This document shows positions 6,598-44,290 of a DNA stretch of 64,000 nt, one piece after another; position 1 is the stretch's first letter, and each line of letters begins with the position of its first letter. Source of the stretch: Neofamilia massiliensis (GTDB lineage: Bacteria > Bacillota > Clostridia > Tissierellales > Peptoniphilaceae). A program made the position numbers and the translations under genes. Location of the stretch: assembly GCF_001299475.1 (NCBI RefSeq), contig NZ_CYUJ01000003.1, forward strand, positions 624,409-688,408, given 5' to 3'. The notes under the pieces are model-generated. The model saw nothing but the letters and a program-made list of their open reading frames with translations. It had not been told where the DNA came from and made no database searches.

Positions 6598-6600
6598 TGT

Positions 6601-6951: not shown

Positions 6952-6961
6952 TGGGCCTCCT

Positions 6962-27981: not shown

Positions 27982-28019
27982 AAAAACCAAGACTGGCATT
28001 TTCGCTAATCTTGGTTTTT
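27982..28019. terminator. Bidirectional terminator between the AraC gene and mobB
   Basis: AAAAACCAAGA (27982-27992) pairs with TCTTGGTTTTT (28009-28019); A and T runs at the two sides serve the two converging genes. Confidence 0.85.
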
Positions 28020-28810
28020 TATTTGTATGAAATTTTTATTTCTCTTGGAAAGTTTTCTAGGTCCATTTTCACTAGGGCCTTCCTTATTTTTTCTTCTGTC
28101 TCTTCATCGCCATCAAAAGCAATTTTTGGATAGGCTCTTAGACAAGCCTTATAAGTTTCTTCTCCTTGGGCAATTTTTTCTGCCAGGTCCTTGCAAGTCA
28201 GTCCACACATTTTGCAGCCCTTATAGTCTTTAAAGGCAAGAGCTGGGTAGACTTTTTCTTCTACTAGGTCTGCTAGTTTTTCTATGTCATCAAAAGTTTT
28301 AAAGGCCTTAAGGCCCTTGTAGTCTTCTATCTCATCTGCAATTTTTCCAGATATGGCAAAGGTGGTCTTTTTTAGTCTCTTGTCTAAGTTTTCAAGACTT
28401 GACCCTGTTGTGATTTTTGGAAGATCATAGGCCCTGCCACCTTCTACAATTAAAAAGTCATAGTCGTAGCTGTCAATAAGGTCAGCAAGTTCTAGTCTCT
28501 CAGGATAAATTAAAGCTGTTTCTCCCTTGGACCAGGCTGTTACAACTTTTGCTCCAGCCCTTCTGTGCTTAAAGGTGTTTTTCCCTTCAGTGTCTATGGT
28601 AAAACCAAATTCTGGATGGTGGTGGTTTCCGTCACAGGCTCCTGTTAAATGACCTTGACAGCCTCTGCCACAGCCAATTGATTTTACTGTTCCAACTGTA
28701 TAGTCTCTTTTTGTCAATTCTTTTGTAAGCTCAACTACTAAAGTTGTCTTGCCAGACTTAGAAACTCCTGTTACAGAAAAGGCCTTCATGTGTTTATTTT
28801 TTTGTCTCAT
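28019..28810 (-). CDS. mobB: MobB, molybdopterin-guanine dinucleotide biosynthesis protein, with a Cys-rich C-terminal extension
   Basis: A 263-residue P-loop protein. Residues 9-22 carry GVSKSGKTTLV, the GTP-binding loop of MobB, and FLIVEGGRA near residue 140 matches the family. The usual MobB has about 170 residues; here there is an added domain with CKMCGLTCKDLA and a further Cys in YKACLRAYP (about 200-230), a CxxCxxxC plus C pattern suited to an iron-sulfur cluster. Start ATG at 28810 has AAGGAG upstream and overlaps tatC by 17 bases. MobB helps MobA attach GMP to the pterin; mobA is not in the window. It closes the ydh-tat operon. Confidence 0.85.
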   Translation of the reverse strand: MRQKNKHMKAFSVTGVSKSGKTTLVVELTKELTKRDYTVGTVKSIGCGRGCQGHLTGACDGNHHHPEFGFTIDTEGKNTFKHRRAGAKVVTAWSKGETALIYPERLELADLIDSYDYDFLIVEGGRAYDLPKITTGSSLENLDKRLKKTTFAISGKIADEIEDYKGLKAFKTFDDIEKLADLVEEKVYPALAFKDYKGCKMCGLTCKDLAEKIAQGEETYKACLRAYPKIAFDGDEETEEKIRKALVKMDLENFPREIKISYK

Positions 28811-29543
28811 CTACTAACTCCTTGTCTGCTTCTCTAAGTTTTTCCTTGTAGGTCTTTGTTGAAATAAAGGCTGACAGTTTTAAAAGGCCAACCATTGGCA
28901 GGCCTATTAGGCACTGGGAAATTACATCTGGTGGCGTAATAATTGCTGCCAAAATAAAAATCAAAATAATTAAGTGCTTGTCATAGCTAGTAAAAAAGCT
29001 TGGTGTCAAAATCCCTAGCTTGGTGCCAATGTAGGCAAAGGATGGAATATTAAAAACCACGCCCATAGCTAACATCAAGGTCAAGATAAAGGATATATAA
29101 GATTTTACAGAAATCATCGGCGCAACTTGGTCAATGGCAATTCTGGTAAAAAATTGTAGGGATATTGGCACAACAACCTTGTAGGCAAAAATCACTCCTA
29201 CAAGAAAAAATCCAAAGCCTAGACCTAAAGCTATTTTTACCATTTTCTTTTCATTGTCATAAAGGCCCTTGGCTACAAAGGCCCAAAGATGGTAGATAGT
29301 CAGTGGCAAGCAGATTCCAATTGCTAGAACTAGGGCTATGTGAATGTAGACGTTCATAATTTCTGACGGTTCTACAAAAATCAGGTGCATCTTAGGATTT
29401 AATTCCATAAGCTTTTCTAGGATCTTTCCTGAGCGTGAAAATGCCAGTAGCATCACAATTAAATGAGCTACTGACACTATAGTAAGTCTTTTTCTTAATT
29501 CGTCTAAGTGGCCAATGATTGGCATGTCTTTATCTGAATTCAA
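28794..29543 (-). CDS. tatC: Sec-independent translocase subunit TatC
   Basis: A 249-residue integral membrane protein with six hydrophobic segments. The start MNSDKDMPIIGHLDELRKRL is the TatC cytoplasmic N-terminus (HLxELRxRL), and FVEPSE in the first periplasmic loop is the conserved FxxPxE signal that binds twin-arginine signal peptides. A TTG start (29543) has AGAGG eight bases upstream. It lies 17 bases behind tatA and downstream of ydhY, whose product has a twin-arginine signal, so the translocon is in an operon with its probable client. Confidence 0.95.
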   Translation of the reverse strand: MNSDKDMPIIGHLDELRKRLTIVSVAHLIVMLLAFSRSGKILEKLMELNPKMHLIFVEPSEIMNVYIHIALVLAIGICLPLTIYHLWAFVAKGLYDNEKKMVKIALGLGFGFFLVGVIFAYKVVVPISLQFFTRIAIDQVAPMISVKSYISFILTLMLAMGVVFNIPSFAYIGTKLGILTPSFFTSYDKHLIILIFILAAIITPPDVISQCLIGLPMVGLLKLSAFISTKTYKEKLREADKELVDETKK

Positions 29544-29560
29544 AAATCTAACCTCTAGTC

Positions 29561-29794
29561 TTATTTGTCATTGTTTTGAGCTTGGTCAATTTTTTCTGAA
29601 ACCTGACCATCAGTTTTTTCTTCTTTTGTTATGGCTGGTTGGTTTAAAGTTTCTTCTAGGTCTTCTTGGCCTTTTTTAAATTCCTTGACTGCTTGGCCCA
29701 TTGACTTTGCAAGCTCTGGTAATTTTTTTGGTCCAAATACTATTAAGACTATTACTAGTATTATGGCTAATTCGCCTATTCCTAATCTTCCCAT
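29561..29794 (-). CDS. tatA: Sec-independent translocase subunit TatA
   Basis: A 77-residue protein: one N-terminal membrane helix (GIGELAIILVIVLIVFGP), the FGPKKLPEL hinge, an amphipathic helix to about residue 45 and an acidic tail, as in TatA. RBS GAAGGA before the ATG. There is no tatB, normal for Gram-positive bacteria where TatA and TatC suffice. Confidence 0.95.
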   Translation of the reverse strand: MGRLGIGELAIILVIVLIVFGPKKLPELAKSMGQAVKEFKKGQEDLEETLNQPAITKEEKTDGQVSEKIDQAQNNDK

Positions 29795-29818
29795 TTATCT
29801 TCCTTCTTTCTATAAAAA

Positions 29819-30553
29819 TTATTGGTACTCTTTACTTTCAACTTCTAAATATTCACAAAGACTTTTTGCATACTTCTCGCTCATTTCATCTGTGGAATAA
29901 ATACACTTGCCGCCGTTTGAAGCCTCAACTACTTTTATGTCTTGGTAGTTTTCGTCTGCTTCCATGGCCTTTAAGGCTCTTTCAATTTCTTCTTCCTTAT
30001 AGGAATAAGGAGGCTCATAAAGGGCAGTAAATTGTAAGGGCCTTGGATAAATTTTACAATCTCTTCTGGCCCTAGTTGCTATTGCCTTGTTAATATCTTT
30101 CTCTTCTAATATTACAGCAGTGTCTGCATATTGTCCAGTCCACAAGAGAATATCATAATAGTAAACATCCTTGGCAGTTTCTATTAGATCAAGATTGTCA
30201 AGGTCTTCATAATCGTCAATGTTTGTAAGAATCTCTTCAACTTCTTCTGACCTTAAGCCTTGAGGAGGATTTTTTATAAGATCAGATTTTTTTCCAAGCT
30301 TTTCTTTTAAATTTTTTCCTCTTATATATTCGTATAGGATTTCTGCCTGAGACCTTTCTCTTTCGTATTCTTTTGCCACCTTGTCCATAGCAGTTTCAAA
30401 GGCTGCTATTGTTTTTAAATCTAAGTTGTGCATTAGCTCAGCTGCTTCCTTCTCATCAAGGTCTGTATTTTCTTCTATATATTTTTTTATTTCAGCTTCC
30501 TCTTCAGCTCTGGTCTGAGGAAGATTTTTTTCTTGGTCAAAATTTTTTGTCAC
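29819..30553 (-). CDS. YdhW-like protein of the YdhYVW redox cluster
   Basis: A 244-residue soluble protein starting at a GTG (AGGTG five bases upstream). It has an acidic, helical N-terminal half, a DVYYYDILLW segment near residue 130, and a C-terminal part with YPRPLQFTALYEPPYSYKEEE. It was named from its place: in E. coli ydhY-ydhV-ydhW stand in the same order with partners of the same sizes. There is no signal peptide, cofactor motif or membrane segment. An assembly or cofactor-insertion role for the YdhV enzyme is plausible but untested. The N-terminal half could be a separate domain. Confidence 0.6.
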   Translation of the reverse strand: MTKNFDQEKNLPQTRAEEEAEIKKYIEENTDLDEKEAAELMHNLDLKTIAAFETAMDKVAKEYERERSQAEILYEYIRGKNLKEKLGKKSDLIKNPPQGLRSEEVEEILTNIDDYEDLDNLDLIETAKDVYYYDILLWTGQYADTAVILEEKDINKAIATRARRDCKIYPRPLQFTALYEPPYSYKEEEIERALKAMEADENYQDIKVVEASNGGKCIYSTDEMSEKYAKSLCEYLEVESKEYQ

Positions 30554-30572
30554 TTAATCACCTAAAAATTTA

Positions 30573-30591
30573 GCGGGCACATTTGGCCCGC
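30573..30591 (-). other. Intra-operon hairpin between ydhV and ydhW
   Basis: GCGGGC/GCCCGC stem with a seven-base loop directly behind the ydhV stop. The T run is weak (ATTTTTA, some bases on), so partial termination or protection of the ydhV mRNA is likely. Confidence 0.5.
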
Positions 30592-30600
30592 CTATATTTC

Positions 30601-32703
30601 TTATGCTGGTAGCAGATTTTTTGAAGCTAAATCGTCAGCAACATCTCCTAGGCCAAACTTTTCTAAAGTCGCCCTAGTTGGTGCTCCTGTAACTTCGTCC
30701 CAGCCCATTTCTCTGTAAATCATAGTTAGAGCTGTTTGCATATCTGCCCTGTCCATTTTAATAGTTCCTTCTTCAAAGGCCTTAAAGTCAGGATCCATAT
30801 CATAAACCCAATCGTTAAAGGCATCGTGTTCATTTCTCATATCAACTGTGTTTAGACCTAAAACTGTTGTAGCCCTAAGAAGTTGCAAACCTCTTTCTGC
30901 TGCAAAGTCTAAGTCTTCCATTGACCATTCGTCTCCAGTAATGGCTGTCATATATTGGGCTTCTACTGTAAGGTCACCCTTGTAGCCTCTTTCTGGAAGT
31001 GGAGATAAAGTCATTGGCCATACCCAGTTACAAAGAGTAAAGGAGTCGTGTAGCCACTGACGAACAACACCGAATTTTGCAAATTTTGCCTTAGACTCGT
31101 TCATTGGAGTGTAGTTTTTAACCTTGTCTAAACATCCCTTGCCAAAGTAGCCTTCAATTATTGGATTAAGTACGTCATAAGGAAGGCCTGATCCCCAAAT
31201 ATTTACAATTGTGTGAGTCATACAGTCTCTGTTGTAGAAAATATTTGTTAGGGCTCCAACTTGGGCAGCACATTCGTTGCCGTGGTGTTTGGACCAACCA
31301 AGAGGTGAAATTACTGAAACTTCTTTGGCGTTTAGGTAGTCGTCTCCTAAGATGTCCTTGTATCTTTCGTTTACAAAGTAGGCGCCTTCACCTAGGTGGG
31401 CAATTTCTCCACGCTTTTCTGCTATTCTAGTTTGAATGTCTCTAATAAAGCCTGGGTCTCCTGCTTCATATAGGTCCCATCTTAGGTCGTCGTATTCTTC
31501 TTTTGGTAAAATTTGTTCCAAAATATTGTGGTCTATAAAATATTTAATTGTGTTTGGAAGTTCTCCGTAGTTTTCCCAAAGTCCAAGCTCGTCAGCAGTT
31601 GTTAAGGCTGCGTAATTGGCTAAGAAAGTTCCGTCTCCTTCTTCCATATAGTCCTTTGGTTTATTTAAAATTTTTGCGTATTCAAAGTTAGGCATACAGG
31701 TGTTAGCGCCAACTGGTAGGTAGCCTTCTTCTTCCATAAATGGAACTTCAACTACTCCGTAGCACCTAACTGGACAAGATGTACATCCGCCCATTTTTAC
31801 TGTATATTTTTCTGAAACCGGTCCAAAGTCCTTGTAGGCCTTTTGGCACCTGTAACCAAATTTATTTAATTCCCCTGGAGGTGCATCTCCTGTATCAACT
31901 GGGCCGCCGTCAGCTGCTCCCCAAGTTAGGCCTGGTCTTCCTGTCCAACGAGAGTTAGGATCGTGGTATTCTGCCCAAGGTCTTTCTGTTGATGGAACAA
32001 CGTGATTGTTGTTAGATCCCATTAGGTCTTTCATTACATAGTTATTTAGTTCTAAAATCTTTTTGCCATCGGCGACTTTTACTCCACCTGTTCCATAAAT
32101 TGAAATGGCCTTTAAGTTTTTAGAACCCATAACTGCGCCAGTTCCTCCACCACCTGAGTGGGCTGTTGCATTTAGCATACAAGATAGGTTGACTAGATTT
32201 TCTCCAGCTACTCCTATGGCAGTTGTGTTGTATTCCTTGCCGATTTTATCTGCTATACGTTTGGTTGTTTCCCTAGTCGATTGGCCCCAAAGGTCTGAGG
32301 CGTCTTCTATAGAAACTTCGTCGTCTCTTATTTTTATAAAGACTGGCTTGTCAGCTTTTCCTTCTACAATTATTGTGTCATAGCCAGCCATTTTCATCAT
32401 GTAGGCCATTTCTCCACCCATGTGGGCGTGGATAATGTTGTGGCCCTTGGTAAATGTAGAAAGTGAAGTGATTGTAATTCTACCTGAACATGGAGCTGAG
32501 GTACCTGTGTTTGGTCCAACTGAATAAATTAATTTGTTGGCTTCGTCATAAGGTTTTGTGCCTACTGGAACTTCTTCATACATTATTCTAGTTCCTACTC
32601 CAGCTCCTCCTATATAGTCTTTGTATTTTAAAGAATCTTCAACTGTAGATTCTCCTGTTGTTAGGTTTATCCTAAGTTGTTTGCCTGTAAATCCTAAAGT
32701 CAT
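30601..32703 (-). CDS. ydhV: Aldehyde ferredoxin oxidoreductase-family pterin enzyme, YdhV-like
   Basis: A 700-residue enzyme, the same length as E. coli YdhV. AOR-family enzymes hold tungsten or molybdenum on two pterins plus one [4Fe-4S] cluster. Visible marks: YKDYIGGAGVGTRIMYEE near the start, the pterin-binding NTGTSAPCSGR and AHMGGEMAYMMKMAGYD, GAVMGSKNLKAI, and the cluster ligands GGCTSCPVRCYGV (about 305) with a later Cys in NRDCMTH. There is no signal peptide. It sits between the exported ferredoxin gene and ydhW, and upstream of a full cofactor block, so its metal cofactor is supplied locally. The aldehyde or other substrate is unknown. Confidence 0.88.
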   Translation of the reverse strand: MTLGFTGKQLRINLTTGESTVEDSLKYKDYIGGAGVGTRIMYEEVPVGTKPYDEANKLIYSVGPNTGTSAPCSGRITITSLSTFTKGHNIIHAHMGGEMAYMMKMAGYDTIIVEGKADKPVFIKIRDDEVSIEDASDLWGQSTRETTKRIADKIGKEYNTTAIGVAGENLVNLSCMLNATAHSGGGGTGAVMGSKNLKAISIYGTGGVKVADGKKILELNNYVMKDLMGSNNNHVVPSTERPWAEYHDPNSRWTGRPGLTWGAADGGPVDTGDAPPGELNKFGYRCQKAYKDFGPVSEKYTVKMGGCTSCPVRCYGVVEVPFMEEEGYLPVGANTCMPNFEYAKILNKPKDYMEEGDGTFLANYAALTTADELGLWENYGELPNTIKYFIDHNILEQILPKEEYDDLRWDLYEAGDPGFIRDIQTRIAEKRGEIAHLGEGAYFVNERYKDILGDDYLNAKEVSVISPLGWSKHHGNECAAQVGALTNIFYNRDCMTHTIVNIWGSGLPYDVLNPIIEGYFGKGCLDKVKNYTPMNESKAKFAKFGVVRQWLHDSFTLCNWVWPMTLSPLPERGYKGDLTVEAQYMTAITGDEWSMEDLDFAAERGLQLLRATTVLGLNTVDMRNEHDAFNDWVYDMDPDFKAFEEGTIKMDRADMQTALTMIYREMGWDEVTGAPTRATLEKFGLGDVADDLASKNLLPA

Positions 32704-32713
32704 AAAATCCTCC

Positions 32714-33367
32714 TTACTTGCTTTCAGCTAGGGCAGTTGCTACATCTTCCCACTTAACCATTTCAATGGCGCCAGTAATGCAGCCTTTTACACAGGCTCC
32801 ACAGTTAACGCACTTAGTTGAAACATTTTCTTCTGGATCAATTTTTGGTAGATGCCATGGGCAGGCCTTTGTACAAGCGCCACAAGCAATACATTTTTCC
32901 TTGTCAATTAATCTTGTTCCAGTTTTTTCGTCTGCATAAATTGCATCAACTGGACAGGCGTTTCCGCACCAAGGATTTGCACATTGCTTACAAGTAACTG
33001 GTTCCCATCTAAAGTTTCCAATGACTCCTGGATTATGTAGGTAATCATCATTTAGCTCTTCACCAAAGTAATAATTATCTCTTAGGTTTAATCTAGCGAT
33101 AAATGGTTGAATTCTATTTCCGTCGTTTTGTAGGTTACAATTCATTTCGCACCTGTGACAGCCAACGCACTTGTCTTTGTTAACAACAAGTAAGCCTGTT
33201 GGTGTTGCCCAGGAAAAGATTTTGCCGTTTTTAATTTGTTTTTCTTCACAACCAATTAGGTTTAAAAGTGAAGCAGAAACAGCAAGACCTGCAAGTCCCT
33301 TTCCAGAGATTTGTAAAAATTGTCTACGTGTATATTTCTTATCAAATAATTTTTTATTTTCTGACAT
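32714..33367 (-). CDS. ydhY: Exported 4Fe-4S ferredoxin-like protein, YdhY-like, with twin-arginine signal
   Basis: A 217-residue iron-sulfur protein. The N-terminus has TRRQFLQISGKGLAGLAVS, a twin-arginine signal, ending LIGCEE, which could be a lipobox. Four cysteine groups follow: CVGCHRCEMNC, CKQC with CGNACP, CIACGACTKACP and CVNCGACVKGC, enough for four [4Fe-4S] clusters. Similar subunits pass electrons from molybdo-enzymes. First gene of the ydh-tat-mob operon, with a promoter upstream. If exported, it would face a cytoplasmic YdhV across the membrane, which is puzzling, unless the pair is exported together. Confidence 0.88.
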   Translation of the reverse strand: MSENKKLFDKKYTRRQFLQISGKGLAGLAVSASLLNLIGCEEKQIKNGKIFSWATPTGLLVVNKDKCVGCHRCEMNCNLQNDGNRIQPFIARLNLRDNYYFGEELNDDYLHNPGVIGNFRWEPVTCKQCANPWCGNACPVDAIYADEKTGTRLIDKEKCIACGACTKACPWHLPKIDPEENVSTKCVNCGACVKGCITGAIEMVKWEDVATALAESK

Positions 33368-33401
33368 ATTTTTCCCCTCTTATTAGTTTCTTATAAATAT
33401 T

Positions 33402-33430
33402 ATACTAGTGGAAATAAAAGTCCTTGTCAA
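33402..33430 (-). promoter_or_regulatory. Promoter of the ydhY operon
   Basis: On the minus strand, TTGACA (33425-33430), 17-base spacer, TAGTAT (33402-33407); an overlapping TATAAT lies three bases further. Confidence 0.6.
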
Positions 33431-33437
33431 TAAAAAA

Positions 33438-33477
33438 ACAAAAAAAGAACAAAAGTCTTTATAGAGCTTTTGTCCTT
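33438..33477 (-). terminator. Terminator of the molybdenum cofactor operon
   Basis: Read on the minus strand, AAGGACAAAAG pairs with CTTTTGTTCTT, followed by T. It separates mog from the ydhY promoter. Confidence 0.85.
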
Positions 33478-33489
33478 TAAAAATTTTAT

Positions 33490-34005
33490 TTATTTGTTTT
33501 CATTTGCACAATCTGCTGGTCCACCTGTGAGCATATCTAAGCCGTGAATAAGTGAATCAGAAATTGCCTCCAAGTTTTCTTTTATGGCCTTTGGTGAGCC
33601 TGGAAAATTTATTATTAGGCTAGACTTTCTAAGTCCTGCTTGGGCTCTTGATAGGCAGGCCCTGTTAGTAATCTTTGCTGAATAGGCCCTCATCATTTCA
33701 GGGATGCCTGGAGCAAGTCTGTCACAAACTTCTATTGTCGCTTCAGGTGTTACATCTCTTTTAGAAAAACCTGTGCCTCCAGTTGTTACAACAAGAGCTA
33801 TGTCTTCTCTGTCTGTAATTTCTATTAAAGCATCTTTAATTCGATAGACTTCATCTGGAACTAGGCCTTTGGCAACAACTTCAAAACCTAGGTCTTCTAG
33901 TAGGTCTTTTAAAAGCGGACCGCCAAGGTCTTCTCTAACTCCTGCATAAGACCTGTCTGATACTGTAAGGACTGCTGCCTTGTAGCCGTTTAATTTTTTT
34001 GTCAT
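33490..34005 (-). CDS. mog: Molybdopterin adenylyltransferase, MogA/MoaB family
   Basis: A 171-residue protein that adenylates molybdopterin before metal insertion. The MoCF fold is marked by LTVSDRSYAG, VTTGGTGFSKRDVTPEA and the NFPGSPKA loop. Start overlaps the upstream gene as TAATG; its ribosome site lies in the last codons of that gene (GGAGGACTTTTA). It is the last gene of the modABC-moe-moa-mog run, directly before the terminator. Confidence 0.93.
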   Translation of the reverse strand: MTKKLNGYKAAVLTVSDRSYAGVREDLGGPLLKDLLEDLGFEVVAKGLVPDEVYRIKDALIEITDREDIALVVTTGGTGFSKRDVTPEATIEVCDRLAPGIPEMMRAYSAKITNRACLSRAQAGLRKSSLIINFPGSPKAIKENLEAISDSLIHGLDMLTGGPADCANENK

Positions 34006-34982
34006 TATAAAAGTCCTCCTTCTCCCATTTTTATAAAGTCTTCTCTCTTTAATTTTATTTTTGCAAAAATTCTTGGCAGAGCAAAGTCAAAGGAAGTTAT
34101 AGGTGCGTGCATAGTCGCTCCAGGAACTCCGATTAAAATCTTTCCATCTAAGTCGCCAATTGTCAGCATATTTCCTGGTTGAACTGGAAGACCTTGGATA
34201 ATCATCCTTGCCCCAGAATTTTTTATTGCTGTTGGTGTTAGGTCATCTGGGTCTACACTCATGCCTCCTGTAAAAATAATTAAGTCTGCATCTTTAGAGA
34301 GATAAAAGTCTAAGGCTTCTTTAATTTTTTGAAGATCATCTGGACATTTTCTTACATCAATAATATCTGCATCAAAGCTTGCAAGTTTATTTCTTAAAAC
34401 TCCTTCAAACCTATCTTCGATTCTGCCAGTGTAGACTTCGTCGCCAGTTATAATTATGCCCACCCTTAAGTGCTGGTAGGGATGTACTTGAAAAATTGGA
34501 AAATATTTTTCTGCAAGGTTTTTGGCTTTTTCAACTTGGTCCCTGCTAGTCCAAAGGGGAACAATTCTGGCCCCACAAAGCTTGTCGCCTTTTTTTACTG
34601 GAGAGAAATTTTTTAAAGTCGCCAAAGTGTAATCGCCAATTAAATTCATCTGGTAAAGGCCTTGGCTGTTTAATTCTAAGACTCCATCACAGTCAGCTAT
34701 AAGTGAGATCTTTCCCTCTGAAACTTCTGATGTAGAAATATTTTTTCCCTTTAGCAGGTCTTTAATTTCTAAAACTGCGTCTTCTTCGTGAACTTGGTCT
34801 TTATCTAGGCTTCCTACATAGACATGGTCCTTGCCTAGGTCCTTAAGGACTTCAACGTCTTCTTCTTTGATTATGTGATTTCTCTTAAAGACAACTCCCT
34901 TAAAACCTGATTCTAGAATTCCTGTTATGTCGTGAAGAAGTGGTTTTCCAATTGCTTCTTCTGTTTTTATTTTCTTTATCAT
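34005..34982 (-). CDS. MoeA/CinA-like molybdopterin-binding protein
   Basis: A 325-residue protein with a C-terminal MoCF-type domain: IIITGDEVYTGR, IIFTGGMSVDPDDLTPTAIK and LPVQPGNMLTIGD, with PGATMHAP. The N-terminal 150 residues are not the full MoeA domain set, so it is the shorter molybdopterin-binding type often found next to AOR or xanthine-dehydrogenase-type enzymes. A true MoeA is encoded at 36859-38094, so this may handle a different pterin form, metal or a sulfur step. It overlaps mog by one base and follows the MOSC gene by seven bases. Confidence 0.8.
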   Translation of the reverse strand: MIKKIKTEEAIGKPLLHDITGILESGFKGVVFKRNHIIKEEDVEVLKDLGKDHVYVGSLDKDQVHEEDAVLEIKDLLKGKNISTSEVSEGKISLIADCDGVLELNSQGLYQMNLIGDYTLATLKNFSPVKKGDKLCGARIVPLWTSRDQVEKAKNLAEKYFPIFQVHPYQHLRVGIIITGDEVYTGRIEDRFEGVLRNKLASFDADIIDVRKCPDDLQKIKEALDFYLSKDADLIIFTGGMSVDPDDLTPTAIKNSGARMIIQGLPVQPGNMLTIGDLDGKILIGVPGATMHAPITSFDFALPRIFAKIKLKREDFIKMGEGGLL

Positions 34983-34989
34983 TTCTTAC

Positions 34990-35418
34990 CTACTTTAAAA
35001 TTTCTATTGGGTCACCTGGATAAATTTTTCCTTCTTTAATTACTATGGCAAAAATTCCCTCTCTAGGCATAACACAGTCGCCAGTTATTTTTCTAATTTC
35101 ACATCCATGGTGACATTCTTTGCCAATTTGAGTAACTTCAACTTCTGTTTGGCCAATTTTTAATCTAGTTCCTATAGGAAGTTCATAAAGGCAAAGGCCT
35201 TCAGTCATAATATTTTCTGCAAAGTCTCCAGAGTCTAAGTCTGGCAATTCTTTTTTCATTTTTTCTAAAGATTCAATGCCTAGTAGAGAAATTTGCCTGT
35301 GCCAGTTGCCTGCGTGGGCGTCTCCAACAATGCCGTGGTCTTTTTTTATTTCAACAAAAGGAACCTTGTGTTTTCTTGTCCCCTTTTTTTCACTTATACA
35401 AACTGAAACTACTTTCAT
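34990..35418 (-). CDS. MOSC-domain protein
   Basis: A 142-residue MOSC domain, the fold that handles sulfur on the molybdenum cofactor in MOCO sulfurases and YiiM/mARC proteins. Marks: GIVGDAHAGNWHRQISLL, the conserved Cys in GKECHHGCEI (about residue 100), and MPREGIFA. Stand-alone MOSC proteins are common in Moco operons of anaerobes. It overlaps moaC by four bases (ATGA-type), with AGGGAGG upstream. Confidence 0.9.
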   Translation of the reverse strand: MKVVSVCISEKKGTRKHKVPFVEIKKDHGIVGDAHAGNWHRQISLLGIESLEKMKKELPDLDSGDFAENIMTEGLCLYELPIGTRLKIGQTEVEVTQIGKECHHGCEIRKITGDCVMPREGIFAIVIKEGKIYPGDPIEILK

Positions 35419-35900
35419 GCGTCCTCCCTTTTATAGTCTCCTGACTTGCCGCCAGTTTTTTCTAATAATTTTATATCTGTTATAACAATATCTCTTTGAA
35501 CAGCCTTGCACATGTCATAAATTGTTAGAGCTGCTGTTGCAACTGCAGTCAAGGCTTCCATTTCAACTCCAGTTTCGCCTAGGACCTTTGTCGTAGCAAT
35601 AATTTCAATTTCATATTTTTTATCATCTAGAACAAAGTCGATGTCTGCACCAGTTATAGATATTGGATGGCACATGGGAATTAGGTCTGGAGTTTTTTTT
35701 GCTCCCATTATTCCAGCTACCTGACTAACTGCTAAAACGTCTCCCTTTTTTATGCCCTGGTTAACAAGTAACCTATAAGTTTCTTCATTTAATAGTACCT
35801 TGGCTGAGGCCTTGGCGCTTCTTTGAGTCTTGTCTTTATTAGACACGTCAACCATTTTGGCCCTGCCACTTTCATTTAAGTGGGTTAGATTTTTTTCCAT
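35415..35900 (-). CDS. moaC: Cyclic pyranopterin monophosphate synthase MoaC
   Basis: A 161-residue enzyme for the second half of cyclic pyranopterin formation. Marks: MVDVSNKDKTQRSA near the start, LIPMCHPISITGADI, and the ETGVEMEALTAVATAALTIYDMCKA active-site block. Full length. Start has AGGAGG upstream. It is placed beside moaA, its partner reaction. The MPT synthase genes moaD and moaE are not in the window. Confidence 0.97.
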   Translation of the reverse strand: MEKNLTHLNESGRAKMVDVSNKDKTQRSAKASAKVLLNEETYRLLVNQGIKKGDVLAVSQVAGIMGAKKTPDLIPMCHPISITGADIDFVLDDKKYEIEIIATTKVLGETGVEMEALTAVATAALTIYDMCKAVQRDIVITDIKLLEKTGGKSGDYKREDA

Positions 35901-35902
35901 CC

Positions 35903-36844
35903 TTAACCTCCTATGGTGTTCATAAATCTTTTTGTGTCAGTTGTCCCGTCAACTAAGTGGTGGCTTTTGTCCTTGTCATATATTCCTTCCTTTAAGGCAG
36001 CTAGTAGGTCATCTCCATCTAGGCCCTTTAATGAAATTTCTCTATTTGAATGGAGACAAGGCTTAAGTTTGCCATCTGCTGTTAGTCTAATCCTATTACA
36101 GTCCTGGCAGAAGCAAGATGAAATTGGAGAAATTAGGCCGACAGTTCCCTTATGTCCTGGCATTTTATAAACTTTTGCCACTCCATCTGTCTTTACTTCT
36201 TCCAAGTCTGGAAGTTTTTCTAAAACTATATTATTAGAAACAAAGTTTTTTTGGTCCCAATTAATAGTCTGACCCATTTTCATAAGTTCAATAAAGCGAA
36301 CTTGAATATCATGGTCTTTAGTGTAGTCCACTAATTTTTCAATGTCATCTATATTAAAACCGCCAATGAGAACGGCATTTATCTTAACCTTAAATCCAAG
36401 ACTTATGGCCTCATCTATTGCTGCTAAAGTCTGCTTTAGATCGCCGCCTCTACTTATCTTTTTAAATTTTTCTGGATCTAGGGTGTCTAGGGAAAAGTTG
36501 ACTCTTCCTACTCCAGCGTCTTTTAAGGCCTTGGCATAGTCTTTGAAAAGAGCTCCATTTGTAGTCAGACAAATTTCTTCAATGCCTGGTATTTTAGAAA
36601 TCTTTTCGCACAAGGACACGATTCCCTTTCTAACTAGGGGCTCGCCTCCTGTCAGTCTAATTTTTTTTATGCCTAAGGTTGCTGCTGCTCTAACGATTTT
36701 TTCAACTTCTTCTAGAGAAATTATGTCGTCGTGGCTGCACTTTTCTATGCCATCTGCTGGCATGCAGTAGAGACATCGAAAGTTACACCTGTCTGTTAGG
36801 GAAATTCTCATATAGGAAATTTCTCTTTTGTATCTATCTTTCAT
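35903..36844 (-). CDS. moaA: GTP 3',8-cyclase MoaA
   Basis: A 313-residue radical SAM enzyme that rearranges GTP in the first Moco step. N-terminal cluster CNFRCLYC (about 18-25), SAM motif TGGEPL, C-terminal second cluster CFCQDCNRIRLT with Cys in LKPCLHS, and the C-terminal Gly-Gly tail (NTIGG) that is essential in this family. Two bases separate it from moaC. Start with GGTGAATTAATTA. Confidence 0.97.
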   Translation of the reverse strand: MKDRYKREISYMRISLTDRCNFRCLYCMPADGIEKCSHDDIISLEEVEKIVRAAATLGIKKIRLTGGEPLVRKGIVSLCEKISKIPGIEEICLTTNGALFKDYAKALKDAGVGRVNFSLDTLDPEKFKKISRGGDLKQTLAAIDEAISLGFKVKINAVLIGGFNIDDIEKLVDYTKDHDIQVRFIELMKMGQTINWDQKNFVSNNIVLEKLPDLEEVKTDGVAKVYKMPGHKGTVGLISPISSCFCQDCNRIRLTADGKLKPCLHSNREISLKGLDGDDLLAALKEGIYDKDKSHHLVDGTTDTKRFMNTIGG

Positions 36845-36858
36845 TAATTAATTCACCG

Positions 36859-38094
36859 CTAACTAAATAAATTTTCTAAGTCATATACTTTAATAAGCTT
36901 TCCTGCGTCTAAGTAGTTTACTCCTGGAGGAATTTCTCCAAAGACCTTAGAGCCAACAAAGGAAGATAAAATTCCATTGCCTTGGCTTGAGTCCTCTACA
37001 AAATAAACCTTGCCATCTTCATATTCTAAAGATCCTCTTAAAAGCCTAAGCCTTGGATTTTCCTTGTCAAAGGGCTTTTTTAAAAGGGCTTGAAAAGATG
37101 GGCTATAAATTTCTTTCCTGCCTAGGGTCTTTTTTAAAAATGGCAGGCAGACTCTAAAGAGGCCGAGGATTGCTGCACCTGGATTGCCAGACAAGTTAAT
37201 AACTGCCTTGTTATTAAGTTTTGAAACAACTAGAGACCCTCCTGGCTTCATGGCAGTTTTTGTAAAGAGAACCTTTCCGCCTAAATTTTTAACAGCCCTG
37301 GCTCCATAGTCGTAGTCGCCAACTGAGGCTCCACCTGTTGTTATTAAAAGGTCGCAAGTCTCATTGGCTATCTTTGTAAGTCTCATAATTTCTTCAAGGC
37401 CATCTTCTACTAAACCATAGTCTTCTACTACAAAGCCTAGATTTTCAAATATCGACAAGAAGGTCAAGTGGTTAGAGTCGTATATTTCTCCTGGCTCTAA
37501 GTCCTGACCTAACTCTTTTAATTCTGATCCTGTTAGGAAAAATCCTAATTTCGGTTTTTTATAAACTTTGATTTTTTCTATGCCCTGGCTAGCTAAAAGT
37601 CCAAGAGATGGACTGTCAAGATTACTTCCCCTTTCTAAAAGTAAACTATTTTTCTTAATATCCTCTCCCTGTTTAACTACATTAGAGTTTGCCTTTAGCT
37701 CCTCTTTTATAAAAACTTGATTTTCTGTAAAGTCAGTTTTTTCAAATTTTATTGTAGTGTTGGCTCCCTTAGGTAGAGGACCGCCAGTTAAAATTTTTGC
37801 TGCTTGAAAGATTCCAAGATCTTTCTTTGGAAAAGATCCTGCAGGAATTTCTTCTGTAATTTCAAATCTTATTGGATTTTCTTCGCTGGCGCCTTTAGTA
37901 TCTTCTCCCCTTAGGGCGTAGCCGTCAAAGGGCGACTTGTCAAAGGAAGGCACGTCAATTTTTGCATATAGGTCCTCAGCTAAAATCCTTTTAAAGGCCT
38001 GGCTTGTCTCTATTTCTTCATATTTATATTCTATATTAAAGTCTAAAAGTTTTTTGGCTCCTTGGTCAGGAGTAATTTGGTCCTTATAATTCAT
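36859..38094 (-). CDS. moeA: Molybdopterin molybdenumtransferase MoeA
   Basis: A 411-residue enzyme that inserts molybdate (or tungstate) into adenylated molybdopterin. Domain order is complete: FDKSPFDGYALRGED near residue 55, ILTGGPLPKGANTTIKFE, FLTGSELKE, LLITTGGASVGDYDY and KPGGSLVV with LSGNPGAA. RBS AAGGAGGGC. Lies between modC and moaA, with 14-17 base gaps, all in one operon. Confidence 0.96.
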   Translation of the reverse strand: MNYKDQITPDQGAKKLLDFNIEYKYEEIETSQAFKRILAEDLYAKIDVPSFDKSPFDGYALRGEDTKGASEENPIRFEITEEIPAGSFPKKDLGIFQAAKILTGGPLPKGANTTIKFEKTDFTENQVFIKEELKANSNVVKQGEDIKKNSLLLERGSNLDSPSLGLLASQGIEKIKVYKKPKLGFFLTGSELKELGQDLEPGEIYDSNHLTFLSIFENLGFVVEDYGLVEDGLEEIMRLTKIANETCDLLITTGGASVGDYDYGARAVKNLGGKVLFTKTAMKPGGSLVVSKLNNKAVINLSGNPGAAILGLFRVCLPFLKKTLGRKEIYSPSFQALLKKPFDKENPRLRLLRGSLEYEDGKVYFVEDSSQGNGILSSFVGSKVFGEIPPGVNYLDAGKLIKVYDLENLFS

Positions 38095-38111
38095 TTGCCC
38101 TCCTTAGGGTT

Positions 38112-39161
38112 TTAAGTATTTAATAGCATTATTTTTTCTGGTCTAATTTTAACATATAAATTTTCTTCGGTCTTTAAGGCTGCCCATTTTTCTTTGGCCA
38201 GGGAAATTCTAATTTTCCCAAACTTAGAAGAGTTTTTCGGACTGTGTACTATAACAACTGACTCAAAGACGTCATCTATTTCCATATATTTTTCTATTTT
38301 AAAAGAGTTTTCTTCTTGGCTTGTAATGATTTCTAAGCTGTGAGACCTTATGCCTAAAATATCTTGGTCTTTTAAATCTTTCACTTTTAAGTCTATTCCC
38401 CAGTCGCTGGCATAAACTAAGTCGTCTCCAATTTTTTCTATGTGAGAATAATTTTTGCAACCAGATATTAAGGCAGCTGCTAGGGTCTTTGGCCTGGCAA
38501 ATAAGTCTAGGGTAGACATTTTTTCTTCTGACTTGCCGTCTTTTATTACAGATATGCTGTCGCAAAGTCTGTAAACCTCGTCTCGAGAGTGGGAAACTAA
38601 AATTGCAGGTAGCTTGTGCTTTGTAATTATTTCCTTTAGTGAAATTTCTATTTGCCATCTTAAAAAGTCATCTAAGGCTGAAAGAGGTTCGTCTAAAAGT
38701 AAAATCTCTGGTTTGTTTACAATAATTCTCGCAAGGGCTGCCCTTTGTCTTTGTCCGCCAGAAAGTTCGTAAATGTAATGATCCTTGTGGTTTACTAGGT
38801 CAAATTCTTTTAAGATATTTTCTGCCAATAAATCTTTCTCTTCTTTAGATATTTTTTCCCTAATGCCAACTAAGACATTTTCTTTCAAGGTCATATTGGG
38901 AAAGAGGGCGTAGTCTTGGAAGAGGTAGCCAACTTTTCTATCTTGGGGCCTTAAGTTAATGTTTTTTTCGCTGTCAAATAAGACCCTGCCATTTAAAACA
39001 ATGCGACCAGAATCTGGTTTGACTAGGCCTGCTATACATTTTAGGGTCAGTGACTTGCCTGAACCTGAGGCTCCAAGGAGGCCGAGAATTTCATTTGCTG
39101 ATTTAAAATCTACATCTAAGCTAAAGCCTGGAAATTCTTTTTTTATTTTAACTTCTATCAT
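38112..39161 (-). CDS. modC: Molybdate ABC transporter ATP-binding protein ModC
   Basis: A 349-residue ATPase. Walker A GASGSGKS (about 33-40), Q loop in YLFQDYALFP, signature LSGGQRQRAALARI, Walker B ILLLDEPLSALD, and His switch VSHSRDE. The C-terminal 120 residues look like the MOP/TOBE regulatory part but are divergent. Overlaps modB by one base (TAATG). Third gene of modABC. Confidence 0.95.
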   Translation of the reverse strand: MIEVKIKKEFPGFSLDVDFKSANEILGLLGASGSGKSLTLKCIAGLVKPDSGRIVLNGRVLFDSEKNINLRPQDRKVGYLFQDYALFPNMTLKENVLVGIREKISKEEKDLLAENILKEFDLVNHKDHYIYELSGGQRQRAALARIIVNKPEILLLDEPLSALDDFLRWQIEISLKEIITKHKLPAILVSHSRDEVYRLCDSISVIKDGKSEEKMSTLDLFARPKTLAAALISGCKNYSHIEKIGDDLVYASDWGIDLKVKDLKDQDILGIRSHSLEIITSQEENSFKIEKYMEIDDVFESVVIVHSPKNSSKFGKIRISLAKEKWAALKTEENLYVKIRPEKIMLLNT

Positions 39162-39850
39162 TATAGGTCCTCAAGACTTTCTTTTTTTAGCTTAGTCTGG
39201 TTTTTGTTTTCTAAAATATTTATAGTTAGTAAAACTAAAAGGGAAATAAAGACATTTATTAAAACCCAAAGGTAGGCCTCAACGTCATTGCCTGTTCGCC
39301 ACAATTGATAAACTGTTGTTGAAATTGTAGCTGTCTTCTTTGGAGTATAACCTGCAACCATTGAAGTCGCCCCGTATTCTCCAAGGGCCCTAGCAAAGGC
39401 CAAAACTAAACCTGCTAGGATCCCCGACTTGGAATTTGGTAAATACAGTTTCCAAAAAATCCAAGTGTTGGACTTGCCTAGGGTTTGGGCTGCGTATTTT
39501 AAATTTTCGTCAAAGGCTTCAAAGGCCCCTCTGGCAGTTCTATACATAAGGGGAAAGGTAACTAAAACTGTTGCAAAAATTGCCGAATACCATTTCATTA
39601 CAAGACTTATGCCAAAGGCCTTGTCTACAAGGGCTCCTAAAGATGAATTTGGTCCTAAAGTTTTTAAAATAAAAAATCCAATTACTGTCGGTGGCAAAAC
39701 TAAAGGCAGGGTCAAAAAAACATCAAGGACCCCCTTAAGGGTCCTAGGAAGTTTCTTTATTTCGTAGGCAAAGAAAATGCCTAGGAAAAATGTTATTATA
39801 GATGAAATTATAGCTATTCTCAGTGAATTGTAGAGGGGAAAAAGGTCCAT
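39161..39850 (-). CDS. modB: Molybdate ABC transporter permease ModB
   Basis: A 229-residue membrane protein with five or six hydrophobic segments. The cytoplasmic EAA loop is AAQTLGKSNTWIFWKLYLPNS, and LARALGEYGATSMVAGY is typical of molybdate/tungstate permeases. RBS AGGAGAAC. Follows modA by 23 bases. Confidence 0.95.
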   Translation of the reverse strand: MDLFPLYNSLRIAIISSIITFFLGIFFAYEIKKLPRTLKGVLDVFLTLPLVLPPTVIGFFILKTLGPNSSLGALVDKAFGISLVMKWYSAIFATVLVTFPLMYRTARGAFEAFDENLKYAAQTLGKSNTWIFWKLYLPNSKSGILAGLVLAFARALGEYGATSMVAGYTPKKTATISTTVYQLWRTGNDVEAYLWVLINVFISLLVLLTINILENKNQTKLKKESLEDL

Positions 39851-39873
39851 AAGTTCTCCTATAAGTAAATTTT

Positions 39874-40725
39874 TTATTTTGCTGGACTAAAGCCAACTGC
39901 TTCAAATATTTCCATGGCTTCTGGTCCTTGGAAGTAGGCTAAAAGTTTTCTTGCTTCTTCTAGGTTTTCGCTTTCTTTTAAAAGGGCTGCAGGATAGATG
40001 ACTGGAGTGTCTAAGTGGCTGCCGTCTTCTTCATAAACTACATCAAGGCCTGCAGAGTAGGCGTCAGTTTTGTAAATAATACCACAGTCAACTACTCCTT
40101 CAACGATCCAAGTAGTAACTTCTTTTACATTTGATCCAAAAGTGATCTTTTCTTGGATGGCATCCCAAGAGCCAAGCTTTCTTAAAATTTCTTCTGAGTA
40201 TTGGCCTACTGGAACGTCAGAATTTCCTAGGGCAAGAGTATCCACTCTGTCAGAATTTAAATCTTCAAAAGTTTTAATGTCCTTGGTAGATCCCTTTGGC
40301 ACAACTAGACAGACCTTGTTTTCTAAAAGGTCGATTCTAGATTCTGAGTCAACTACTTTGTCTGTCGATTCAGGATTTTTTTCTGGGTCTAAGGCGTTCA
40401 TTTGCTTTTGGGAAGCTGAAATAAAAATGTCAGCATAGGCGCCTTCTTCAATTTGAGTCTTTAAAGTTCCAGATGAGTCAAAGGTATAAATTATTTCCAA
40501 GTCTGGATTTTCTTCTTCATAGGCAGCCTTAATTTCTTCTAAGGATTCTGTTAAAGATGCTGCTGCAAAAACATAAAGTTCTTTTTTGCCTCCACTTGTT
40601 TGTTCATTTGTAGTTTCAGCATTTTTCATTGCTGCTTTCTCACTTGTTTGTTTGTCCTCATTCTTACATGCAACCAGTCCAAAGATTAAAGTAAAAGCTA
40701 AGACCGCCAAGAAAAATTTTTTCAT
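39874..40725 (-). CDS. modA: Molybdate/tungstate-binding lipoprotein ModA
   Basis: A 283-residue substrate-binding lipoprotein. ATG at 40725 has GGAG 11 bases upstream and begins a signal peptide ending in the lipobox GLVACK. The frame is open 59 codons further to 40902, but that part is the structured leader and not protein. Mature marks: ELYVFAAASLTESLEEI, FDSSGTLKTQIE, ADIFISASQKQMNAL and DCGIIYKTDAYSAG, all in the ModA pattern. Selectivity for Mo over W cannot be read here. Regulation is through the leader at 40742-40905. Confidence 0.93.
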   Translation of the reverse strand: MKKFFLAVLAFTLIFGLVACKNEDKQTSEKAAMKNAETTNEQTSGGKKELYVFAAASLTESLEEIKAAYEEENPDLEIIYTFDSSGTLKTQIEEGAYADIFISASQKQMNALDPEKNPESTDKVVDSESRIDLLENKVCLVVPKGSTKDIKTFEDLNSDRVDTLALGNSDVPVGQYSEEILRKLGSWDAIQEKITFGSNVKEVTTWIVEGVVDCGIIYKTDAYSAGLDVVYEEDGSHLDTPVIYPAALLKESENLEEARKLLAYFQGPEAMEIFEAVGFSPAK

Positions 40726-40741
40726 ATTTTTTTCTCCAAAT

Positions 40742-40771
40742 AAAAAAAGTTGTTTTGGACAACAAAACAAC
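40742..40771 (-). terminator. Attenuator terminator in the modA leader
   Basis: On the minus strand GTTGTTTT pairs with AAAACAAC (plus-strand 40749-40756 and 40764-40771), followed by seven T, 17 bases before the modA start. It lies behind the structured leader, as expected for a transcription-terminating riboswitch. Confidence 0.85.
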
Positions 40772-40788
40772 AAGTAAATCTTATTTAT

Positions 40789-40905
40789 GTCGTCCTTTTC
40801 AAATACGGAAGGCCAGTCGATTTCTCTTCTGACCCTGAAAACTCCAAAGAGTTTTGGCAAAAACTTCATAGTTGCCCTTAGAAAATTTTTGCTCGGATTC
40901 ATATT
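40789..40905 (-). promoter_or_regulatory. Candidate molybdenum/tungsten cofactor riboswitch (moaA-motif-like)
   Basis: About 115 bases of leader RNA between promoter and terminator. It begins with TCCGAGC, continues with a GGGCAAC/GTTTTTGCC helix, a perfect AAAACTC/GAGTTTT hairpin, and ends with ATCGACTGGCCTTCCG and GGACGACA. The placement upstream of modABC-moe-moa, the CCGAGC and GGCCUUCCG-type segments and the arm-and-hairpin plan recall the Moco RNA motif (Rfam RF01055), but the consensus could not be checked here. A Tuco variant is possible. That it is a metal or cofactor-sensing leader is much firmer than the exact class. Confidence 0.6.
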
Positions 40906-40914
40906 TACTCTTAA

Positions 40915-40943
40915 ATATTAGCATAAATAAGTCTATATAGCAA
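40915..40943 (-). promoter_or_regulatory. Promoter of the modA leader
   Basis: On the minus strand TTGCTA (40938-40943), 17-base spacer, TAATAT (40915-40920), just ahead of the structured leader. Confidence 0.65.
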
Positions 40944-40950
40944 TTGCAAT

Positions 40951-41706
40951 TTAAAGGTCCCAGCCCTCATTTAATCTGTTCATCCACTGGTAGACGTCAA
41001 TTCCATAAACATCTTTTAAGTTTTCCCTAGTCATTACGTCTTCAATGTCTCCATAAGAAAATACTTTTCCTTCTTTTAATAATAGAGCCTTGGTCCCAAA
41101 CATTCTCGCCAGCCTCAAATCGTGGACAACAGAAATTACTGCCCTGCCTGATTCCTGCCTCCATTTATCAACTAAAGAAAAAATCGTCTCTTGGTAGGAC
41201 AGGTCTAGGTGGTTGGTTGGCTCATCTAAAATCATTAGCCTTGGGTCTTGGACTAAAAGTTGGGCTAGAAAAACTCTTTGGAGCTCTCCACCTGATAGGC
41301 TAAGAACTGACCGATCTTTTAAAGAAGAAATACCAGTTAGGTCTAAGGCTTTTTCAATTTTGTCGTCCTCATCGTCAGTCTTTTTTGAAAAAAATCCCCT
41401 GTCCCTAGAATAAGATCCTAGGCTGACAACATCTTTAACTGCAAAGGCATAAGAGATGTAGTGGTTTTGCATAAGGACTCCTAGGTTTTTTGCCCTAGTT
41501 TTTGCTGGCAGGTCTTTTAGGTCTGTGCCTTTAAAATAAATTTGGCCGCTATAAGATAAACTTTGGGCAATGGCATTGGTTATTGTAGTTTTTCCTGCGC
41601 CATTTGGGCCAATAATCATTAGCCAGTCTCCTTCTTCTACAGTAAAAGAAACTTGGTCCAATATTTTTTTTGTAAAAATAACACTAAGGTCTTTGACTTC
41701 TAACAT
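40951..41706 (-). CDS. btuD: Cobalamin ABC transporter ATP-binding protein BtuD
   Basis: A 251-residue ATPase of the FecE/BtuD type. Walker A GPNGAGKT (about 34-41), Q loop VLMQNHY, signature LSGGELQRVFLAQLL, Walker B LMILDEPTNHLD. Last gene of btuF-btuC-btuD and overlaps btuC by one base. Iron-siderophore ATPases look alike; the B12 assignment rests on the cobalamin riboswitch in front of the operon. Confidence 0.88.
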   Translation of the reverse strand: MLEVKDLSVIFTKKILDQVSFTVEEGDWLMIIGPNGAGKTTITNAIAQSLSYSGQIYFKGTDLKDLPAKTRAKNLGVLMQNHYISYAFAVKDVVSLGSYSRDRGFFSKKTDDEDDKIEKALDLTGISSLKDRSVLSLSGGELQRVFLAQLLVQDPRLMILDEPTNHLDLSYQETIFSLVDKWRQESGRAVISVVHDLRLARMFGTKALLLKEGKVFSYGDIEDVMTRENLKDVYGIDVYQWMNRLNEGWDL

Positions 41707-42722: not shown

Positions 42723-42758
42723 TTTTTTCTCCCCTTTTTATTATATGTAAAATTTTAA

Positions 42759-42780
42759 GATGCCAGCGGTAGCCAGCATC
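42759..42780 (-). other. Hairpin between btuF and btuC
   Basis: GATGC/GCATC stem extended by four further pairs, two of them G-U on the minus strand. There is no good T run. It probably adjusts mRNA stability so that the binding protein is made in excess. Confidence 0.45.
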
Positions 42781-42792
42781 CTAAAGTTGTTT

Positions 42793-43770: not shown

Positions 43771-43857
43771 AAATTTCCTCCTCATTATTTACAAAAATTG
43801 TATTTATAAAAATTTTAAGAAAAGTTTTATTTCTCTTAAAAGTTTTACCCAAGTTAT

Positions 43858-44270: not shown

Positions 44271-44290
44271 ACGTTTTATTAAACAAGTAG

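Follow-up and report, generated by a model that had tools for sequence, protein, structure and literature searches.

A ydhYVW cassette beside molybdenum cofactor and Tat genes in Neofamilia massiliensis: a probable exported Class V WOR-type oxidoreductase

Gene content and organization of the block

The window (the whole 64,000-nucleotide stretch analysed, from contig NZ_CYUJ01000003.1 of Neofamilia massiliensis) contains a minus-strand block in which ydhYVW stands with genes for twin-arginine translocation (Tat), synthesis of the molybdenum cofactor (Moco), and molybdate uptake. A preliminary description had set the block at 28019-40943, and every gene that it named was found, on the same strand and in the same order; the end at 28019 was kept, but the other edge was corrected to the start of modA at 40725 (-). 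Its two runs on one strand correspond to two likely transcription units within 28019-40725 (-). We consider it likely that the block as a whole serves an exported, molybdenum-containing Class V WOR-type oxidoreductase, with ydhYVW placed on a Mo/Tat platform that is shared with another enzyme.

Unit 2 has the order ydhY, ydhV, ydhW, tatA, tatC, mobB (all -). The ydhY product (32714-33367) scores 249 bits with NF007382 (cut-off 213), and that of ydhV (30601-32703), a pterin enzyme of the AOR family, scores 988 bits with NF007354 over residues 2-700 (cut-off 868); both proteins are equivalogs of these curated NCBIfam models. The ydhW gene (29819-30553) gave 140.3 bits with NF007411, below its cut-off of 203. 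Both tatA (29561-29794; TIGR01411, 75.4 bits, cut-off 53.9) and tatC (28794-29543; TIGR00945, 166.8 bits, cut-off 132.7) passed their models, as did mobB (28019-28810; TIGR00176, 76.4 bits, cut-off 76.2), whose C-terminal FeS-like stretch reached 21.2 bits with PF04060, below the cut-off of 23. A promoter-like site, TTGACA-17-TAGTAT, precedes ydhY (33402-33430, -); it is a consensus match only, in a scanned region where 35 such sites were found and 27.1 were expected. The 47-bp gap between ydhV and ydhW holds a GC-rich terminator-like hairpin (30572-30592; seven pairs, six of them GC), possibly a processing or attenuation signal.

Unit 1 opens with a Moco riboswitch and continues through modA, modB, modC, moeA, moaA, moaC, a small MOSC gene, a MoCF gene, and mog, with spacings from modABC to mog of -4 to +23 bp. 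The aptamer (RF01055; 40778-40910, -) matched the full model at 70.3 bits (cut-off 36), and the stem between P2 and P4, which we take to be P3, is intact in the alignment. The transporter genes (all -) are modA, for a molybdate-binding lipoprotein (39874-40725, with the start re-set to the ATG at 40725; TIGR01256, 152 bits, cut-off 62.5, scanned on a longer frame to 40902), the permease gene modB (39161-39850; TIGR02141, 203 bits, cut-off 182.6), and the ATPase gene modC (38112-39161), named by position since only the general ATP-binding cassette (ABC) domain passes (PF00005, 118 bits; TIGR02142, 199 bits, below its cut-off of 285). Then follow, on the same strand, moeA (36859-38094; MoeA_N 126, MoCF 78, and MoeA_C 47 bits, all above the Pfam cut-offs, with the specific NCBIfam models below theirs), moaA for GTP 3',8-cyclase (35903-36844; TIGR02666, 359 bits, cut-off 284), and moaC for the synthase of cyclic pyranopterin monophosphate (cPMP; 35415-35900; TIGR00581, 202 bits, cut-off 141.5). 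The small MOSC gene (34990-35418, -; PF03473, 48.5 bits, cut-off 22.7) overlaps moaC by 4 bp. The gene previously called MoeA-like is present (34005-34982, -), but its sole domain match is a C-terminal molybdopterin-binding MoCF domain (PF00994, 85.5 bits, residues 175-304 only). The last gene, mog/moaB (33490-34005, -), is of the molybdopterin adenylyltransferase type (PF00994, 104.8 bits, cut-off 26.6; 146.5 bits with the specific model NF006932, below its cut-off of 158). A terminator-like hairpin with a U-run ends the unit (33425-33490, -; -15.2 kcal/mol, z -3.9, with none of 200 shuffles as good); it was missed by a terminator scan requiring more G-C pairs, which returned 28 sites in the scanned region against 12.9 expected.

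The YdhV, YdhY, and YdhW proteins

YdhV is 54% identical to its E. coli homologue and 51% identical to that of Cetobacterium somerae. Its cysteines 307, 310, 314, and 558, together with Cys336, are invariant in all 25 aligned YdhV sequences. Cys336 corresponds to an added metal ligand that, within the AOR/WOR family, the YdhV clade has in common only with the class II benzoyl-CoA reductases (PMC12096430), and in the window protein it is a predicted metal ligand.

The ydhYVW genes encode a Class V WOR-type oxidoreductase and thus belong to an already published group, described in 2026 and having no known substrate or activity (PMC13328260). The small subunit of that class (WorS/YdhY) bears a Tat signal and/or a transmembrane segment. 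On motif reading, the window YdhY has TRRQFL, a hydrophobic stretch, and a lipobox, and ydhW lies beside ydhYV, as in the Class V context. Aldehyde oxidation would be an unsafe guess for the reaction because the C. somerae large subunit was reportedly inactive on 46 aldehydes (PMC13328260). The enzyme here is probably respiratory, working outside the membrane.

Although below its model cut-off, YdhW aligns with E. coli YdhW at 32% identity and is, by alignment, a clear but distant homologue. Its AlphaFold2 model (pLDDT 94, from 42 sequences) has two winged-helix-like repeats, at residues 67-142 and 150-226, and by eye the modelled protein resembles an internal duplication of one winged-helix unit. 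No Foldseek match was found at E 0.001; the best structure match (Z 7.3) lies among general, unrelated winged-helix proteins, and no TorD-like chain was among the structure matches listed. Pfam gave no match, TorD family included, and comparison with the Protein Data Bank (PDB) sequences gave a single one (E 0.13). All 42 aligned YdhW proteins are acidic, with isoelectric points of 4.2-5.5; a DNA-binding regulator was disfavoured on this acidity of the winged-helix repeats, a weak argument rather than proof. Our guess is that YdhW is probably a cytoplasmic, protein-binding assembly factor.

In a tree of YdhV-type proteins only, including those of E. coli and C. somerae and with no contrasting clade, the window YdhV groups with a Faecalibacterium metagenome-assembled genome (MAG) and Epulopiscium (SH-aLRT 98) and apart from Tissierellaceae such as Gudongella, a placement consistent with horizontal acquisition. 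The ydhV of congener G098 (L013) has an in-frame TGA at codon 61. Selenocysteine was rejected there because the codon aligns with TCA (Ser61) in the window and the assembly is an incomplete metagenome; the TGA is either a sequencing error or a recent nonsense change.

Signal peptides across ydh operons

The twin-arginine (RR) motif that had been ascribed to YdhY is indeed present as TRRQFL. YdhY also carries a lipobox that had been overlooked (LIGC, Cys40), making it a predicted lipoprotein, and 16 further cysteines in four 4Fe-4S motifs. It is the sole match to [STN]RRxF[LIVM] within ~35 residues of a Met among all six-frame open stretches of at least 60 residues in the window. No signal peptide is visible in YdhV, as first described, when the protein is read by eye rather than with a predictor.

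Eighty-two loci were compared: the best 80 of 247 relatives, E. coli, and C. somerae. The 80 include many close enterobacterial strains and several loci cut by contig ends, and the division into Enterobacterales and others follows record titles. The YdhY signal could not be read in three loci, two of them cut (L014, L049) and one without YdhY (L071). The gene for YdhY is directly upstream of ydhV in 81 of the 82, the remaining locus being cut; the gap in the window is 10 bp. Exactly one RR signal per operon was found in all 79 readable loci, on YdhY in 45 and on YdhX in 34, with none having both or neither. The YdhX-type operons are those of Enterobacterales plus one Telmatospirillum, so that YdhY has the RR in 45 of 46 readable non-enterobacterial loci and in 0 of 33 from Enterobacterales. 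Enterobacterial YdhY (e.g., L002 7852-8478) nevertheless keeps a Tat-like signal and lipobox in which the second Arg is Leu in 33/33; in the Telmatospirillum protein, Gln replaces this Arg, and signal and lipobox are otherwise retained. Of the YdhY proteins, 30 of 46 non-enterobacterial and all 33 enterobacterial ones have a lipobox, and tatA or tatC lies near the ydh genes in 39 of 48 non-enterobacterial but 0 of 34 enterobacterial stretches. E. coli YdhX is listed among predicted Tat substrates (PMC7549933).

Distribution among relatives

The two runs occur together in one congener, in line with the conservation looked for at the outset, but not in two further relatives, where the block lacks ydhYVW. 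The full gene order is repeated in congener G098 (L013 and L101, the same contig), and combinations of ydh, tat, and Moco genes with a Mo/W transporter occur in Dielma, Cetobacterium, and Clostridium polynesiense, or without the transporter in Anaerocolumna; the full order in the congener and the parts in other families argue that the arrangement exceeds chance. Within the family, YdhV passed its cut-off in two of 130 genomes and TatC in four, including both YdhV genomes; among the matches listed, tatC is present in all three genus members. The TatC proteins of the four genomes form one clade.

The Mo/Tat block is present but ydhYVW is absent in congener G097 and in G060, a member of another genus. 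Between mog and tatA of G097 lies a ydhW fossil, a stretch of 52 bp with 86.5% identity to ydhW (E 2e-10), and the TatC of this genome is sister to that of the window (100/100). From this remnant and the sister relation, the cassette was most likely lost in G097. Both congener genomes are drafts (G097, 73% complete; G098, 64%).

The N. massiliensis genome encodes a second molybdoenzyme with an RR motif and lipobox, closest to PhsA (334 bits, cut-off 694). Its gene shares the contig with the block, at a distance of ~143 kb, and is accompanied by genes for MobA, a TorD-like chaperone, and a DmsB-like protein. A similar PhsA-like enzyme with an RR is found in G097 and G060; the G060 frame (L104, G060:C125 around 22110) has one stop near its 3' part, due to error or decay. 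The block had been viewed as a self-contained module, a description that holds only in part given its occurrence without ydhYVW, the second RR molybdoenzyme, and the failure to find MoaE and MoaD/ThiS (see below). A Tat system dedicated to YdhY was also rejected because there is a second RR-lipoprotein molybdoenzyme and because two relatives that lack ydhYVW have kept the Tat genes. The Mo/Tat block is probably a shared platform.

An alternative assigns the Moco unit, tatAC, and mobB to the PhsA-like enzyme and treats their contact with ydhYVW as incidental. It can draw on G097 and G060, which retain the block and the PhsA-like enzyme in the absence of ydhYVW, on the TorD-like gene and mobA that directly precede modA in G060, and on the single family clade of TatC. 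We regard it as improbable: tatA/tatC accompany ydhYVW in the 39 of 48 non-enterobacterial loci noted above, Clostridia and Cetobacterium included, and G098, albeit 64% complete, has both the block and ydhYVW but a single PF00384 match, which by eye resembles a cytoplasmic formate dehydrogenase.

Metal content

Three features favour molybdenum over tungsten as the metal of YdhV, although this is not a firm call: the P3-type riboswitch, modABC in the same unit, and the lack of a TupA match in the genome (from a search without a positive control). P3-bearing RNAs occur with molybdopterin (MPT) or Moco genes only, whereas P3-less RNAs accompany tungsten cofactor (Tuco) genes in 17 of 19 organisms (PMC2408646). 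E. coli YdhV carries bis-Mo-MPT (PMC9103625) and prefers Mo (PMC13328260). That the window protein is instead a tungsten enzyme would be in keeping with the W preference of the C. somerae Class V enzyme and with the ability of ModABC to carry tungstate (both PMC13328260), but in view of the riboswitch, the transporter, the TupA search, and the E. coli enzyme, we think this unlikely.

Proposed route of export

Molybdate would enter via ModABC, and the riboswitch-controlled unit would make the cofactor, probably Mo-bis-MPT without a nucleotide. Still in the cytoplasm, YdhV would be loaded with this cofactor and with a 4Fe-4S cluster, YdhW being the probable assembly factor, and would then dock on YdhY. 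Guided by its single RR signal, carried by YdhY, the folded YdhV-YdhY pair would cross through TatA-TatC and be anchored to the outer face by a lipid at Cys40 of YdhY. The same Mo/Tat platform would also provide for the PhsA-like RR-lipoprotein enzyme, ydhYVW being a cassette upon it.

The preliminary description had left two options for the signal-less YdhV: an exported YdhY reached by some path not visible, or joint export. The finding of exactly one RR signal per readable operon favours the latter, and the simplest account is that YdhV crosses with its RR-bearing partner as a folded complex. The one-signal pattern offers a direct and simple test of the Class V WOR export route.

Several observations weigh against the proposal. 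The RR on YdhY or YdhX maps to a single switch on the YdhV tree and thus amounts to one event instead of 79. Neither the window nor the surroundings of ydhYVW in the other Firmicutes loci showed a ydhU-like membrane partner, and no isolated Ydh complex was reported in the literature surveyed. The terminator-like hairpin with a U-run in the gap between aptamer and modA (40749-40771, -; from a pattern scan), a possible expression platform of the riboswitch, is weak on folding (z -1.1; 22 of 200 shuffles as good). The tungsten preference of the C. somerae enzyme stands in the way of a firm assignment of Mo, and YdhV was predicted to be cytoplasmic in Gordonibacter pamelaeae and an Eggerthella (PMC4257093).

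The last of these, with the absence of a visible signal peptide in YdhV, leads to a different view, in which YdhV is a cytoplasmic enzyme that donates its electrons to ferredoxin and only YdhY is exported, to serve another partner; when the C. somerae subunits were co-expressed and purified, only L, and not S, was identified (PMC13328260). Such an arrangement seems quite unlikely: the ydhY gene sits immediately ahead of ydhV in nearly all loci, at a distance of 10 bp in the window; a YdhY on the outside would be cut off from electron exchange with a YdhV left in the cytoplasm; and a single RR per operon is the expected outcome of complex export.

Molybdopterin synthase and the small MOSC protein

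The profiles for MoaE (PF02391) and MoaD/ThiS (PF02597) each gave no match in the N. massiliensis genome, which is listed as 100% complete; positive controls succeeded in 11 and 13 of 14. By known rules, this leaves a gap in the cofactor pathway of an organism that has two pterin enzymes. A MoaE gap in acetogens is already in print, with a cysteine desulfurase proposed (PMC5039349).

Among 293 genomes of the class with completeness of at least 95%, MoaC was found in 73 and a MoaE-model match in 15 (14 above the cut-off), with both in 13. The MoaE-like matches are weak (best 40.6 bits, against 131.7 for E. coli MoaE with the same model), and more divergent MoaE may have been missed. A MOSC match was present in 67 of the 293, every one of which has MoaC; two of the 67 matches are partial, those of G250 and G399, and the one in G399 (E 2e-4) also contains a stop. 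MOSC occurred in 58 of the 60 genomes with MoaC but no MoaE and in nine of the 13 with both (Fisher p 0.008, ancestry ignored), leaving two genomes (G171, G216) with MoaC and neither of the others; two genomes without MoaC had MoaE-like matches (G173, G370), one of them below the cut-off. The distance from MOSC to moaC was at most 300 bp in 36 and at most 5 kb in 51 of the 67, and in seven genomes the MoaC and MOSC matches fall in open frames of identical length (301-314 residues) and so represent fusions.

The four MoaC and MoaE genomes without MOSC, from four families, have the MoaE-like gene 0.6-3.1 kb from moaC. In the nine that also have MOSC, it is >0.7 Mb away (four genomes) or on another contig (five), which in drafts is not a proven distance; the contrast has p 0.0014, again with ancestry ignored. 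In G253 (L145 3538-4434, -), which lacks a MOSC protein, Mog is fused to a divergent MoaE-like domain and adjoins a YqeC/XdhC protein. Two aligned MoaE-like proteins keep the residues at E. coli R39 and K119, presumably the functionally important ones, but lack the C-terminal tail. Cysteines 102, 106, and 115 of MOSC are present in 37 of 38 rows, among which are the window protein itself and loci that overlap within the same genome. No PDB sequence matched MOSC at E 0.01.

On these distributions, the small three-Cys MOSC protein beside moaC is a tentative candidate for the missing MPT synthase of Clostridia: it would carry the sulfur for converting cPMP to MPT, in place of MoaD/MoaE. The suggestion, for which the open literature surveyed (subscription journals being outside its scope) held no prior proposal, stems from the occurrence of MOSC only with MoaC, its adjacency or fusion to moaC, and its exchange for a MoaE-like gene in the four genomes without it. 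If true, the exported YdhV and the PhsA-like enzyme would both receive their MPT through this protein. The distribution data name one small protein for the MoaE gap, which bears on Mo/W cofactor synthesis across a class of anaerobes.

It is rather probable, on the other side, that MOSC handles Moco or detoxifies a substrate in the manner of YiiM or YcbX, MOSC proteins of a Moco-enzyme family (PMC6147048), and that MPT is made by a divergent MoaE or by the cysteine desulfurase already proposed. The nine of 13 genomes having MOSC alongside both MoaC and a MoaE-like gene suit such a role, and the weak MoaE matches in the class leave room for unseen ones. The strict restriction to MoaC genomes (67/67), the fusion or adjacency to moaC, and the replacement by MoaE-like genes within moa clusters fit it less well.

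Neighbouring genes

Electron transfer via a neighbouring flavin subunit is mentioned for gut Clostridia (PMC13328260). By eye, no gene for a flavin mononucleotide (FMN)-binding protein was seen among 13 neighbour genes of seven related loci, and none was found in the four that were Pfam-scanned. FMN_bind was matched four times in the N. massiliensis genome. One match is the RnfG-like gene of the window and another belongs to a second Rnf-like set; the remaining two are small proteins, one of them a predicted lipoprotein. The RnfD- and RnfG-like genes of the window lie from 44448 onward (+), and the second set is elsewhere in the genome (L140, G000:C2 around 816600); the two sets are possible low-potential electron routes to the membrane. 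The predicted lipoprotein, of 123 residues and with an FMN-binding domain (52.6 bits; L142 1360-1731, +), is a possible outside electron carrier.

Adjoining the block, a BtuF/BtuC/BtuD-like ABC importer (40951-43785, -) has a cobalamin riboswitch upstream (73.4 bits; 44105-44285, -). On the other side, an AraC-type regulator of 413 residues (26522-27763, +) is convergent with mobB. A frame that by eye resembles it lies beside the G097 block (L100 6096-7352), and the ydh genes of C. somerae have an annotated AraC regulator nearby (L003 5684-6928). A clostridial MAG (L024) has, ~1.3 kb downstream of its ydhYVW-tatAC genes, a small molybdopterin-binding protein of the sulfite-oxidase type (6593-7090, +; PF00174, 29.2 bits, cut-off 24).

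Comparison with known systems

The closest described counterpart is C. somerae CsWOR41LSW (Class V WOR/clade 41), where ydhYVW is followed by fdhD, tatA, tatC, and moeA, with tupABC upstream (PMC13328260); the same gene set was seen in its locus (L003). The two systems share YdhV, YdhY, and YdhW homologues, a small subunit with a Tat signal, downstream tatA and tatC genes, and adjacent Moco genes and oxyanion transporter. They differ in that the window has ModABC and a Moco riboswitch rather than TupABC, a lipobox on YdhY that C. somerae YdhY lacks, no fdhD, moaC, mog, MOSC, and MoCF genes in the same run, and mobB. With E. coli ydhYVWXUT, the window shares the YVW order, but it is without ydhX, ydhU, and ydhT, bears its RR on YdhY instead of YdhX, and has linked Tat genes.

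Dielma fastidiosa has a Mo operon with AOR and MOSC genes that was described as a horizontal transfer of Mo use (PMC6147048). Its locus (L070) resembles the window in placing ydhYVW beside moeA-like, moeA, moaC, moaA, MOSC, mog, and modABC genes with tatAC alongside, whereas its tatAC genes are divergent and the gene order differs.

The complex of the class II benzoyl-CoA reductase BamB is cytoplasmic. BamB is a CoA enzyme within a multi-subunit complex, whereas YdhV here is predicted to be exported. The two match in sequence as AOR-family proteins, and their clades are closely related (PMC12096430); because their alignment ends before Cys336, the shared Cys metal ligand is taken from that paper. 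For export, the nearest likeness is the hitchhiker mode of Tat transport of hydrogenases and formate dehydrogenases (PMC10924467) and of PaoABC (PMC4273604); by analogy with these, we propose that in the Ydh proteins the RR-bearing subunit would carry its signal-less partner across the membrane.

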